From NCBI RefSeq assembly GCF_900157305.1, contig NZ_LS974202.1:1860001-1924000 (forward strand): DNA of 64,000 bases, read 5' to 3'. Shown here in pieces: positions 5,227 through 10,290 of this stretch (positions are counted from its first letter, which is position 1; every line of letters starts with the position of its first letter). The notes below the pieces were generated by a model, which worked only from the letters and a program-made list of their open reading frames with translations, did not search any database and was not told the origin of the DNA. This stretch comes from Mesotoga infera (GTDB taxonomy: Bacteria; Thermotogota; Thermotogae; Petrotogales; Kosmotogaceae). Made by a program: the position numbers and the translations under genes.

Positions 5227-6054
5227 ATGTTTTATGTGATTACGATCGGCGTCATCATGGGTCTTGCAAATCTCATACCGGGAGTCAGCGGCGGTACTAT
5301 CGTGCTGCTCGGAGGTCTTTACGAGAGGTTCGTTGGTGCTGTCGCTTCTCTTTCCGAATTCAAATTCGAAAGAAAGCAACTTCTGTTCCTTGTTGAGCTC
5401 TTCGCAGGGGTAATTGTAGGACTGTTAGCCTTTTCCAGTCTCATCGAGTTATCTCTTACAACTGTCCCTTCGTTGATGTACGGAATCTTCTGTGGATTGG
5501 TGGTGGGAAGTGTCCCGGTAGTGCTTAAAAATATAAAGAAGTTCACCCCCACCTCGGCTGTATCTTTCGCGGTTGGCGTGATCCTGGTGATGGCCATGGC
5601 CTTTTCTGGAGCCAGACCCGGGGACGATGCACTCCTGACACACTCTCTTCCGGCCTTTCTGTACGATTTGCTGGCCGGATTCGTGGGTGCGGCGGCCATG
5701 GTTCTCCCCGGACTAAGCGGGGCCTTCGTGCTGCTCTTGATGGGTGAGTACTCAAGGGCGATATCGGCCATCAACGACCGCGACCTATTGATAATACTTT
5801 TCATAGGATTGGGAGTTGTTGGGGGAATAGTTCTTGTAAGTAAGATCCTGAAGTCGTTGATGAAAAAACGTCAAAACGAAACCTTTTCGTTTCTACTGGG
5901 TCTGATGATCGGTTCCATCCCCGACCTTCTGACCAGAACCGGCGAAGCAACGCGCTTATCGTTACTGGTTCCGGGAGTGGTGCTCGGGGTTTTCCTCTCT
6001 TACCTCCTCGCCGTCTTTGAAAGAAAAAACAGGCCCGTATGCTGTGGTCGATAG
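5227..6054 (+). CDS. DUF368 family membrane protein, probable undecaprenyl-phosphate translocase (PopT-type)
   Basis: Polytopic membrane protein of 275 residues. The two DUF368 hallmarks are present as an internal pair: NLIPGVSGGTIVLLGGLYERF near residue 15 and VLPGLSGAFVLLLMGEY near residue 160. DUF368 proteins were identified as undecaprenyl-phosphate flippases (PopT) that recycle the lipid carrier for peptidoglycan and surface polymers. The specific role here is by family. Strong SD GGAGGTGG, single-gene transcript, convergent with tRNA-Arg. Confidence 0.88.
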   Translation: MFYVITIGVIMGLANLIPGVSGGTIVLLGGLYERFVGAVASLSEFKFERKQLLFLVELFAGVIVGLLAFSSLIELSLTTVPSLMYGIFCGLVVGSVPVVLKNIKKFTPTSAVSFAVGVILVMAMAFSGARPGDDALLTHSLPAFLYDLLAGFVGAAAMVLPGLSGAFVLLLMGEYSRAISAINDRDLLIILFIGLGVVGGIVLVSKILKSLMKKRQNETFSFLLGLMIGSIPDLLTRTGEATRLSLLVPGVVLGVFLSYLLAVFERKNRPVCCGR

Positions 6055-6139
6055 CAACCGGTAAAAGTAATCCTTACACAGTCTCGCGTGGACTCCAGGA
6101 GAGACGGTTCCTGACAATTTCCCCGATATCGCTGTTCTA

Positions 6140-6215
6140 TGGCGTGCTCGGTGGGATTTGAACCCACAGTCTCTGGATCCGGAGTCCAGCGCTCTATCCG
6201 TTGAGCCACGAGCAC
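6140..6215 (-). tRNA. tRNA-Arg(CCG)
   Basis: 76-nt cloverleaf with encoded CCA (6140-6142). The acceptor pairs GTGCTCG with CGAGCAC. The anticodon arm is CTGGA-CTCCGGA-TCCAG with anticodon CCG, and the T-arm carries GTTCAAATC. Its first 22 bases also encode the last codons and stop of ruvX on the same strand. Confidence 0.96.
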
Positions 6216-6901
6216 ATGTACACGGCACAATTGTCTGCCGGCTCGATGCTAGAAGCGGGCAGTTCAGCACCTTCAGTGATTACTATTATATCGTAAGTTG
6301 AGAAGTCGATATCGTCAAGAAGGTTTTTCGGTTTGAAGCCCTTTTTCACGAAGGAGAGATATATCTGTGGATCTTCCACATAGACGTCCATTTCTTTTGT
6401 CGAATCGAGCCCCACTATCTTTGAAGAGAGCGGCGCGTAGAGTAGCGCTTTTTTTCCGGCATCTATAGGCGGAAAGTTACGACATACGGGAAAGAGATCC
6501 CTAACTTCCCAGTTTACTGTGGTTCCGCGAGAGTAGTTTCTCAGTATTTCCATAGCGCTCAGTATATCGCGCCGGGTCGAGAAACTCAGCCCACTGTCTT
6601 TTGCGATCCTTTCGGAGGATTTCGTTGTGAGTCTTTCGTCGGTCAATATCACCCTACCCGGAAATATCTTTTTCACTTTTTCGGCGAATGCAACGACTTT
6701 CATCGCCAGCTGGTTGAACCGACCCGACATAGAAAGTGGCAGCCCTATGACCGTTAGATCTATCTCTCTTTGAGAGAAGATTTCCTTCAGGCTTTTGCGA
6801 TAATCTCTGTGCTCTATCGTCTCGAGTGGAATCTCGATACCTTCTATTTGGATCGCCAGACCGATTCTCACAGTGCCGAAGTCAATTCCCAGTATCTTCA
6901 T
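6194..6901 (-). CDS. ruvX: RuvX/YqgF-type RNase H-fold nuclease with a C-terminal extension
   Basis: The first 140 residues match RuvX (YqgF): GIDFGTVRIGLA at the N-terminus, VIGLPLSMSGR in the middle and the TDERLTT motif near residue 92. The family is implicated in pre-16S rRNA maturation and in Holliday junction resolution. The usual length is about 140, but this protein has 235 residues. The extra ~95 residues (LLYAPLSSKIVGL... to the end) look folded and are unassigned. The final residues CSWLNG and the TAG stop lie inside tRNA-Arg. It overlaps the preceding DUF3343 gene by 20 bases. Confidence 0.85.
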   Translation of the reverse strand: MKILGIDFGTVRIGLAIQIEGIEIPLETIEHRDYRKSLKEIFSQREIDLTVIGLPLSMSGRFNQLAMKVVAFAEKVKKIFPGRVILTDERLTTKSSERIAKDSGLSFSTRRDILSAMEILRNYSRGTTVNWEVRDLFPVCRNFPPIDAGKKALLYAPLSSKIVGLDSTKEMDVYVEDPQIYLSFVKKGFKPKNLLDDIDFSTYDIIVITEGAELPASSIEPADNCAVYMCSWLNG

Positions 6902-7154
6902 AAAACTCTCTCACGGGATTTGAATGGCAGTGAGCTATTGAAAGCGGGTCCAGACCATTTCTCTCCAGAACCTCGAGGCAACATTCCAAATTGCCAGAAG
7001 AAATGGCAATAGATATTGAACAGCCCGGAAAACGTTGCGGCGGGGTGGGAAAGAGTTTGGCGGCAACTCCCGCTTCTCTCAACGCTTTCATGGAAGGAAG
7101 AACGGCTCCCAGGGGCATTAAAAGCAGGATGTCCAGACACGCTGTCTCAACCAA
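6882..7154 (-). CDS. DUF3343 family protein (putative Se/S carrier-like)
   Basis: Small protein of 90 residues. The pattern MPLGAVLPSMKALREAG followed by KLFPTPPQRFPGCSISI matches the DUF3343 layout, a short alpha/beta domain with a conserved Pro and Cys. Members are annotated as putative Se/S carrier-like proteins, with little direct experimental support. The start is TTG at 7152-7154 with GAGGTG 7 bases upstream, inside the last codons of recJ. Overlaps with recJ (8 bases) and ruvX (20 bases) imply coupled translation. Confidence 0.7.
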   Translation of the reverse strand: MVETACLDILLLMPLGAVLPSMKALREAGVAAKLFPTPPQRFPGCSISIAISSGNLECCLEVLERNGLDPLSIAHCHSNPVREFYEDTGN

Positions 7155-10100
7155 CTCTCAGCACCTCTTCGGAATTGGTAAGACTGCGCAACAGTCCCCT
7201 GGTGGTCATAGTCGAAAGCTTTGTGGCAAACCAGCGCGTCATTCTCTTTTCAGCTATACCCTCTCTGTATCTAAGGGTTTTTTTGACCAGAGTAGTATCC
7301 AGTTCTCCATTCGAACTGCTGTACCACACATTGCCATCGTAATTCAGCAGGTTCATCTCTTCCAGAATCGAAAGATAGACCTTGGAGATACCGTCTTCGA
7401 AGCTCAAAGCCTTTCTTATATCTCTTTCGGGAGCGGGAAGTACATCTTTCAAATCCTGATAGACGGCTTCCAGCTCTTCAATAGTAGGGAAAAGCCTGTC
7501 CATTTCGCTTGTGTTCGAAAGCAGGTCGCTTTTGTTGAACGAGAGGTTCAAGAAGAGCTCGGAGTCTTCGCCAGGCCTCGTTGAGACGGAATCGAGAACC
7601 TCCAGAAAGTTTCTCGGAGCGCTGTAAAATACGATGTTAGAATTTCCTAACGTGACTCCGAGTCCGTCGCTGGAGGGCGTGGTGATCAGAACTCTAATCT
7701 TTTGTCTTTCGACCAACGAGTAGATCACCGATCTCTGGAAGTCCTTTAACATATAGTTGTAGAATATCAACTCGCCGTTTTGAAGGGCGTGAGAAAGCCT
7801 CGAACCCATTGATTTGGCCAGCGTCACAGTCTTATGTGGAGAATCGACGATAACTGCTACGTTTTCTCCATGACCGACGATGGACATGACTTGCTCGACC
7901 TTTTTCCGGGAGCCTCTGTTGTCTATGATACCTACCTTTTTTATGGGGTTGGGCTTATAAACGTGGGAGATTCTCCTATCGGCAAGAAACTCCTTGAGGT
8001 CGTCGTAATACACGCTTCCGGTGAAGCCCGATATGTCCAAAACCGAATCAATAAGACTTAAAAAGCCTTCGAGATCAGGATGGCCCTTGAATATACCCGA
8101 GAGAATATAGGCCGGTTCGTCAAATATTACCTCTCCTGCGGTTTCCAAGATCCTTGCAAAGTTTTCGACGAAGAAGGGAAGGGTAACGAATATAACGTTC
8201 TCTTCTAGACTTCCCCTGTACAGAGAATTGGCAAAAACTGGTTTAATCGCATCGAGGTAATGTTGAAGAGAGTAGTAAGTGTGTGCGAGCGTTCCGTTGA
8301 TAGCCGAAACTATGAAGGTCTTCAGCCCTTTCTGGTAGTTTCTTAATATCCTTAAGGCAAGAAAGGGGTTCTTCAAACGTATATTGCCGAAGGTGCCCCA
8401 GGGACTCTTCGAACTTATATCCATGAATTCCGGGCATTTGTGCGAGAGCTTCTTTTCGAGTTCTGAAATCAAAGCCGAGACGTCATTCTTAACCTGAGAA
8501 GCAGGCTGCTGATTTTTCCAGTCCCTTATGAATTCAAAAACAAAGTTTTTGTCCCTGACTTCCTCTTCGAAGACGGGATCTATGTACAGATTGACATCTG
8601 AAAGCGAAAGCTTCACGCTTTGGAGCCCGTAGAGGTTGTCGCTCTTTATAGAGGCAACGGCATCCACCTTCAAAAGATTGGGTTTTACGTATTTGAAGTC
8701 ATCAAAAATGGAACTCATGTTGTAGCCTATTGCGAGTGTTTTTCTATCGCCCGACCGGAGGATCATCTTCACGTGATCGCTTCCACTCCCGAAGGTTTTG
8801 GCCTTTTCTATGTTCAGACCCTTTATCAGAAACTTGGGTTCGGGATTCGAATGTCCGAAAGGTCTGAGAATCTCGAGTTTGTCCAATACGTGGGGAGTTA
8901 TCGATTCGAGAGACAAAACGTCGTCCACATCTATCTTAAAGACTGGCAATTTTCTTCCGTATTGCCTTATATAAGCTTCATTGATAGCCCTGCGAAATTC
9001 CGGAATGTTTTCTTTGTCAATACTGAAGCCAGCGGCCATTTCATGCCCTCCGAACTCCCTGAGCAGAGAAGAGACCTCGTTCAACAAACTGATTATGCTG
9101 ACTCCAGAAGGACTCCTGGCCGATCCCTTTCCGTCCTGTCCAGTGGTGGAGATGAGAAAAACAGGTTTGTTGTGTATAGAGACAAGTCTTGAAGCGACGA
9201 TGCCCAGTACTCCAAGGTGCCAGTTATCTCCATCGATGACGAGTGCGAAATCGTCGTTCATTCGATGGTTTATCTCTAGATCTTTGGAAGTCTGCTCGAA
9301 AATTTTGGCCTCGATCGTCTGGCGATTCTGATTGTGCTTCAAAAGTCTGCTGGCCGTGTTCATTGCCGAATCCATGTCCTCGCTAATAAGCAACTCCAGT
9401 GCCACAATGGCTGAATCCATTCTTCCTGCCGCATTGAGTTTGGGTGCTATCTTGAAGGCGATATCTTGGGCCGTCAGATTTTCCGAAGGAATTCTCAAAT
9501 AAGATAGGAGAGCTTTCAACCCCAGAAGAGGGCTGCTCTGTATCTTCGCCGTTCCTTCTCTCACGATGTATCTATTTTCGTCGCGCAGTGGTACAATGTC
9601 GGCTATAGTTCCAAGGGCTACTATGTCTAGATATTCTTCGGGATTGATGGGGCAACGCAGCGTCTCATTCAACGCCACCAGAAGTTTGAAAGCAACTCCG
9701 ACACCGGCCAACCCTTTGAAGGGATAAGAATCGTCAGGTCTCTTTGGATTGATAACCGCGTTTGCAGGAGGAAGAATGTCCTTTACTTCGTGGTGATCGG
9801 TGACTACCACATCGAATCCGATTTCTCTTGCGTACTCTATTTCACTGAACGATGTTACTCCGCAATCTACAGTTATCAGGAGACTGTGACCCCTGTCACG
9901 GAGATCTTTGAGGGCGTCTCTACTGAGACCGTAGCCCTCCTCGAGTCTCAGGGGTATGTAATAGCTGACTTTGAAGCCCATTCTCTTCATTGCCAAATAA
10001 AGCAGTGCGGTACTGGTAACGCCGTCCACATCGTAATCGCCGAAGATCACGATACTCTCATCTCTGTCTCTCGCACCGATAATGGTTCTGACGGCTACCG

Positions 10101-10290
10101 TCATGTCCTGGAGTATAAAAGGATCGTGAAGGATCGTCTTATCTGGGTTCAGGAACTTCATAGCTTCGATTTCGTCTTTTATACCCCTTGTAACAAGCAA
10201 TCTGGCCAAAAAAGTATCTATTCCCAAATACTCGACGAGCCTCTTCACAGATTCATCGTCGGGCTTAAGCAGAAGCCACTCCTTTCTCAT
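7147..10290 (-). CDS. recJ: Single-strand-specific exonuclease RecJ, long form
   Basis: The N-terminal half is canonical RecJ, a 5'-3' ssDNA exonuclease used in recombination and repair. It shows DYDVDG at 85-90, VDCGVTS near 142, DHH at 165-167 and the DHHA1 motif FGGHEMAAGFSI near 415, followed by an OB-like segment. At 1047 residues it is far longer than the usual 550-800. The extra C-terminal ~470 residues resemble a worn helicase/NTPase region (VIVDSPHKTVTLAKSMGS, RVLITTPSSDGLGVTL) without an obvious Walker A. The ATG at 10290 has GAGGGTGG 7 bases upstream. It is the first gene of recJ-DUF3343-ruvX-tRNA-Arg. Confidence 0.9.
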   Translation of the reverse strand: MRKEWLLLKPDDESVKRLVEYLGIDTFLARLLVTRGIKDEIEAMKFLNPDKTILHDPFILQDMTVAVRTIIGARDRDESIVIFGDYDVDGVTSTALLYLAMKRMGFKVSYYIPLRLEEGYGLSRDALKDLRDRGHSLLITVDCGVTSFSEIEYAREIGFDVVVTDHHEVKDILPPANAVINPKRPDDSYPFKGLAGVGVAFKLLVALNETLRCPINPEEYLDIVALGTIADIVPLRDENRYIVREGTAKIQSSPLLGLKALLSYLRIPSENLTAQDIAFKIAPKLNAAGRMDSAIVALELLISEDMDSAMNTASRLLKHNQNRQTIEAKIFEQTSKDLEINHRMNDDFALVIDGDNWHLGVLGIVASRLVSIHNKPVFLISTTGQDGKGSARSPSGVSIISLLNEVSSLLREFGGHEMAAGFSIDKENIPEFRRAINEAYIRQYGRKLPVFKIDVDDVLSLESITPHVLDKLEILRPFGHSNPEPKFLIKGLNIEKAKTFGSGSDHVKMILRSGDRKTLAIGYNMSSIFDDFKYVKPNLLKVDAVASIKSDNLYGLQSVKLSLSDVNLYIDPVFEEEVRDKNFVFEFIRDWKNQQPASQVKNDVSALISELEKKLSHKCPEFMDISSKSPWGTFGNIRLKNPFLALRILRNYQKGLKTFIVSAINGTLAHTYYSLQHYLDAIKPVFANSLYRGSLEENVIFVTLPFFVENFARILETAGEVIFDEPAYILSGIFKGHPDLEGFLSLIDSVLDISGFTGSVYYDDLKEFLADRRISHVYKPNPIKKVGIIDNRGSRKKVEQVMSIVGHGENVAVIVDSPHKTVTLAKSMGSRLSHALQNGELIFYNYMLKDFQRSVIYSLVERQKIRVLITTPSSDGLGVTLGNSNIVFYSAPRNFLEVLDSVSTRPGEDSELFLNLSFNKSDLLSNTSEMDRLFPTIEELEAVYQDLKDVLPAPERDIRKALSFEDGISKVYLSILEEMNLLNYDGNVWYSSSNGELDTTLVKKTLRYREGIAEKRMTRWFATKLSTMTTRGLLRSLTNSEEVLRVG

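Follow-up and report, generated by a model that had tools for sequence, protein, structure and literature searches.

The window analysed here, a stretch of 64,000 nucleotides of the Mesotoga infera chromosome (contig NZ_LS974202.1, positions 1,860,001 to 1,924,000), carries on its minus strand a ruvX gene whose reading frame ends inside the tRNA gene that follows it in the same orientation. The features of the locus, in window coordinates, are the following.

6140..6215, minus strand: tRNA-Arg(CCG), single copy, CCA encoded (ARAGORN and Rfam)
6194..6901, minus strand: ruvX (yqgF) coding sequence, 235 aa (open reading frame and PF03652)
6194..6215, minus strand: ruvX/tRNA overlap of 22 nt, equal to the 5' part of the tRNA, in the same frame in 17/17 genomes of the family
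6278..6307, minus strand: codon-invariant block GACTTCTCAACTTACGATATAATAGTAATC, spanning ruvX codons 199-208 and likely the core of an internal promoter (codon constraint)
6285..6290, minus strand: TATAAT hexamer, candidate -10 box, 75 nt before the tRNA 5' end
6290..6318, minus strand: alternative promoter TTGACG-17-TACGAT, 9/12 matches, weak on its own because hits in the region equal the shuffle mean
6882..7154, minus strand: putative 90-aa open reading frame between recJ and ruvX, overlapping both (list of open reading frames)
7147..10290, minus strand: recJ-type exonuclease gene, upstream and in the same orientation, probably in an operon with ruvX

The final codons of ruvX (TGC TCG TGG CTC AAC GGA TAG) are nucleotides 2-22 of the tRNA, whose bases thus encode RuvX residues 230-235 (CSWLNG) and the stop. 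As the initial annotation had described, codon by codon, the ruvX stop lies within a same-strand tRNA-Arg, and the overlap extends over 22 nt. The bases in double use comprise the 5' strand of the acceptor stem, U8-G9-G10 and the D-arm, the stop codon TAG corresponding to tRNA positions 20-22. The tRNA itself, placed by ARAGORN and scoring 71.8 bits against Rfam RF00005, is the sole CCG tRNA among the 46 tRNAs of the genome, and it is also the only one of the 46 in which a coding sequence of at least 80 aa ends. The locus is a same-strand overlapping pair formed by a genuine coding sequence, with an in-frame stop, and a mature tRNA.

Upstream, the putative 90-aa frame overlapping both recJ and ruvX suggests that the two are transcribed together, and they likely form one operon. 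Downstream of the tRNA lies a convergent gene of the DUF368 type (PF04018). In many relatives mreB follows tRNA-Arg(CCG), but it is absent here, where the DUF368-type gene lies in the region 5227-6140 of the window, and in one further genome (G009).

The assignment of the protein is supported by matches to PF03652 (E=1.3e-23; 84.3 bits against a cut-off of 29.2) and TIGR00250 (60.7 bits against a cut-off of 43.25). M. infera RuvX shares with the solved members of the RuvX/YqgF family (PDB 7ess, 1nu0, 1vhx) a catalytic N-terminal domain, here residues 1-123, but at 235 aa it exceeds their single-domain length of about 130-150 aa, owing to a C-terminal extension of about 100-110 aa. RuvX chains in the PDB (117-151 aa) align over only about 130 columns, and the solved structures are without the roughly 100 C-terminal residues present in the Thermotogota protein. 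This extension (positions 6197-6480, minus strand) is predicted to be folded and falls outside all solved RuvX structures. The structure model has a mean pLDDT of 89 and places the last predicted strand at residues 226-230; in families f8 and f10 of our survey (families are numbered f1 to f11 below) the conserved C-terminal strand reaches the residues encoded by the tRNA.

The survey covered 103 Thermotogota genomes, 99 of which contained RuvX. tRNA-Arg(CCG) was the next gene after ruvX in 76 of these 99, and in 55 the ruvX stop lay 10 nt or more into the tRNA (57 if two genomes sharing a single base are counted). The overlap occurred in all genomes of f8 (10/10) and f10 (14/14), in all 11 f2 genomes having the tRNA at this place, and in all 17 genomes of f1, the family of M. 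infera, in each of which ruvX runs into tRNA-Arg(CCG) in an identical phase. Because the same frame enters the same tRNA throughout f1, and because more than half of the loci in the phylum overlap by at least 10 nt, the arrangement is not a chance one. Mapped onto the RuvX tree, the overlap required about 8 changes, versus 32 in shuffles. By genome comparison, ruvX forms with tRNA-Arg(CCG) a same-strand overlapping pair of ancient origin in the Thermotogota. The initial annotation had proposed to compare this junction among relatives, and held that relatives with the genes apart would speak against its reading. In this respect the picture is mixed: the overlap is old and conserved, but in f9 ruvX mostly stops 4-51 nt short of the tRNA, the overlap having been lost in 16/20 genomes, and in some groups the tRNA is missing or has changed place. 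It is located elsewhere in f7 and f11, and it was not found in the three genomes searched from genus 9 of f2 (G038, G039, G042), in which ruvX is intact and tRNA-Arg(UCG) presumably decodes CGG.

The position of the stop follows the tRNA. With A as base 9, U8-A9-G10 is the stop and the genes overlap by 10 nt. With G at that position, as in Mesotoga-like genomes and in G001, the triplet UGG codes for Trp and translation continues for four more codons, up to a UAG or UAA of the D-loop, 22 nt in. In frame-shifted lineages (G021, G054 and G086/G087) ruvX also ends at the D-loop UAG, and the stop has thus stayed inside the tRNA through at least three frame changes. At these junctions ruvX brings no stop codon itself; its frame is closed by triplets that the fold of the tRNA keeps constant.

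How the tRNA is transcribed bears directly on the consequences of the overlap. Other first-in-cluster tRNA genes of M. infera are preceded by a TTGACA-17-TATAAT-like promoter with its -10 box 14-22 nt upstream, the exceptions being Lys-TTT (-10 at 45 nt) and Ile-GAT, which probably sits in an rRNA spacer. No canonical promoter was found 14-22 nt upstream of tRNA-Arg(CCG) in this genome. The same gene lacked a canonical promoter in the f10 genome G090, as did the Ile and Trp tRNA genes there, which are probably co-transcribed with their neighbours. Since stable-RNA promoters of T. maritima are unusually strong (PMC3636130), the missing promoter is informative, and it suggests that ruvX and the tRNA share one transcript.

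A likely promoter was nevertheless recognised further upstream, within ruvX, in a block 75-80 nt before the tRNA. Codons 199-208, which contain TACGATATAATAGTA, hardly vary in codon choice among 10 genomes whose RuvX is 53-91% identical to that of the window: between codons 195 and 209, 7/11 conserved residues use a single codon, versus 2/66 elsewhere before the tRNA (Fisher p=4.5e-6). As this interval was picked after the data were seen, a whole-gene maximum-window permutation was applied, giving p<0.0005 in genus 1 of f1. The homologous site was also the window of strongest constraint in f1 genera 3 and 4 (p=0.009), f8 (p=0.001) and f7 (p=0.005); the permutation was not significant in Thermotoga (p=0.92), in f9 (p=0.32) or in f2 genus 9 (p=0.97), where the tRNA was not found. 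A TATAAT-like -10 box, as expected for sigma-70, lies inside ruvX under nucleotide-level constraint. Partners for it at -35, with 16-18 nt spacing, are clear in f8 (TTGGAA-17-TAT[CT]AT, with TGn before the -10) and f9 (TTGAAA-16-TATAAT); in the Mesotoga group the partner of TATAAT itself is poor, the alternative TTGACG-17-TACGAT overlapping it, and none was seen in f1 genus 4 or in Thermotoga. Scoring with a generic sigma-70 matrix against synonymous shuffles was set aside, as it gave no family-wide significance in f1, f2 or f10 (p about 0.2 in the Mesotoga group), and codon-level constraint was used as evidence because the promoter score alone was not significant.

The simplest reading of the constrained TATAAT block is that of an internal promoter, probably serving tRNA-Arg(CCG), since the block is intact in M. 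infera and in G009 even though mreB is no longer downstream. Members of f7 (e.g. L071, L094) have ruvX without the tRNA yet keep a codon-constrained GATATAAT block, followed by genes for small membrane-protein-like products, possibly of an ATP synthase operon. As it persists there ahead of other genes, the block does not depend only on the tRNA, and it may be an older promoter serving whatever lies downstream. Nor is it phylum-wide, as Thermotoga shows neither promoter nor constraint. In that genus (f10 genus 35; L111-L114, L116, L120, L122) a T-run, GATTTTTTT, comes immediately after the CCA of tRNA-Arg(CCG) and looks like a transcription end right after the tRNA, though mreB begins about 66 nt further on. 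A promoter inside ruvX that accounted for all of the tRNA would undercut the coupling of the two products put forward by the initial annotation. A separate promoter is likely present in the form of the TATAAT block, which speaks in part against that coupling, but the overlap on full-length transcripts remains, and Thermotoga gives no sign of such a promoter.

The explanation that we favour, and consider probable with some reserve, combines the overlap with an internal promoter, translation before cutting and removal of the non-stop products. In the Mesotoga-like group, the promoter in the last quarter of ruvX would probably start a short tRNA precursor with a leader of about 60-70 nt, some tRNA-Arg(CCG) thus probably having its own start, while longer transcripts from upstream (recJ/ruvX) would carry both ruvX and the tRNA. 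A full-length transcript must lose this stop when the 5' end of the tRNA matures, since the codon belongs to the mature tRNA; cleavage by RNase P at 6215/6216 would then leave, as initially proposed, a non-stop message, here ending ...GTG TAC AT, on which a ribosome would stall after residue 228 of 235. This predicted stall point is inside the last predicted strand of the model. tmRNA, whose gene is present in the genome, and 3' exonucleases should clear the stalled product and the message. The accompanying proposal that each transcript yields either the tRNA or a normal RuvX, not both, was too strong, given that translation may precede cleavage: RuvX would be translated from long transcripts before RNase P cuts, and both products would be possible from one molecule, which makes the conflict a question of what happens first and not a strict exclusion. 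RuvX is a low-abundance repair enzyme. CGG accounts for 5% of Arg codons here and for only 2.8 per 1000 codons in the long open reading frames of the window, so that little tRNA-Arg(CCG) is needed. A low requirement for both products would explain why the overlap is tolerated and perhaps even maintained.

Three other explanations were weighed against this one. That the overlap is an annotation artefact, RuvX really ending earlier or in another frame and the open frame being a coincidence, could draw on the poor conservation, in the Mesotoga group, of the approximately 20 residues before the tRNA; however, in 55 genomes no stop interrupts the frame before it enters the tRNA, the strand adjoining the tRNA is conserved in f8 and f10 as G[KR]-[LIM]-[VLM]-C-L, and the model is confident over most of the C-terminal part, with pLDDT of 72-83 near the end, which leaves this reading very improbable. 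We give more weight, while still judging it unlikely, to a neutral origin by packing, in which the internal promoter makes essentially all of the tRNA, cleavage of the rare full-length transcripts is irrelevant, and a lost ruvX stop was simply caught by the tRNA where no intergenic space was left. The internal block in f1, f8 and probably f9 is in keeping with this, as are the ease with which f9 lost the overlap and the case of an unrelated gene in 1/62 outgroup tRNAs (see below), which indicates that chance stop loss can produce such a pair; but a neutral trait would hardly be expected to show zero losses among the 52 overlapping genomes of these four families, and in Thermotoga the internal promoter is not detectable.

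A third reading takes the overlap for a selected regulatory switch: excision of the tRNA by RNase P would turn the ruvX message into a substrate of trans-translation and shut off RuvX through non-stop decay, in a manner tied to RNase P activity or tRNA demand, and this off-switch would be selectively maintained across the phylum. Without a visible separate promoter in Thermotoga, the tRNA and the mRNA probably share a transcript there, and the overlap persists in 55 genomes spread over the depth of the phylum, having survived at least three independent frame changes. Yet f9 shed it in most genomes, the searched genomes of f2 genus 9 do without the tRNA while keeping ruvX intact, an internal promoter outside Thermotoga would uncouple the tRNA from ruvX, and the C-terminal strand conserved in f8 and f10 up to tRNA-coded residues means that upstream nonsense could harm the protein itself. 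We regard such a switch as improbable, both as a mechanism and as a phylum-wide selected trait, and retain the combination of overlap, internal promoter and translation before cutting as the best explanation.

Several known systems resemble the pair in part. Bacterial transcripts joining an mRNA and a tRNA are cut by RNase P, e.g. secG-leuU in Escherichia coli, and like the ruvX pair they have the tRNA in or at the end of a protein-coding transcript; unlike in the ruvX pair, to our knowledge the coding sequence in such cases ends before the tRNA, so that cutting leaves the stop codon in place. In some mitochondria polyadenylation makes stop codons, of which there is no evidence for the ruvX pair. 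The nearest published parallel that we found is in organelle genomes of Blastocystis, where rps12 and tRNA-Asn overlap on the same strand by 7-69 bp (PMC5203790). There, likewise, the stop is inside the downstream tRNA and the overlap length shifts with frame changes, but that case is mitochondrial, whereas the ruvX pair belongs to a bacterial chromosome, is conserved across much of a phylum and has its stop at fixed tRNA positions. Unidirectional pairs of protein genes show short overlaps with translational coupling (PMC10666635); they are compact and on the same strand like ruvX and its tRNA, in which, however, the downstream partner is a structural RNA, so that the conflict would be between translation and RNA processing instead of the reinitiation described for those pairs.

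ruvX is not the only gene whose reading frame a tRNA has captured: a sample of 62 tRNAs, drawn from six genomes belonging to other phyla, contained one further overlap, that of an NAD(P)H-hydrate dehydratase gene (PF01256, E=1.9e-59) whose TAG is U8-A9-G10 of a tRNA-Thr. This pair (Omnitrophota, L276:1716-2648, minus strand; tRNA-Thr(TGT)) overlaps by 10 nt. What is unusual in the ruvX pair is its persistence through a phylum. No tRNA follows ruvX at the RuvX loci of other phyla sampled (eight weak relatives). At one Paceibacterota locus (L249:300-420) the order is reversed and the genes abut, tRNA-Arg(GCG) ending at 372 and the ruvX start codon beginning at 373. A second, apparent overlap in G090, between a tRNA-Thr(CGT) and a 131-aa open reading frame, was rejected as probably spurious, the frame looking non-coding and the tRNA having its own promoter.

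Searches of the open-licence literature for bacterial overlaps of coding sequences with tRNAs, for non-stop messages arising from tRNA processing and for yqgF-tRNA pairs returned no report of the ruvX pair, which is a real, conserved and little-noticed overlap. A single stretch of RNA has here to close an open reading frame and also to form the 5' portion of a mature tRNA, in a bacterial example kept across many genera. U8-A9-G10, widespread in tRNAs, can act as a ready-made stop codon, and the C-termini of Thermotogota RuvX proteins may be misannotated if pipelines forbid overlaps between coding sequences and tRNAs. Once cleaved, a molecule can no longer serve in both ways, and the locus therefore offers a natural and testable system in which translation, tRNA folding, RNase P and trans-translation compete.
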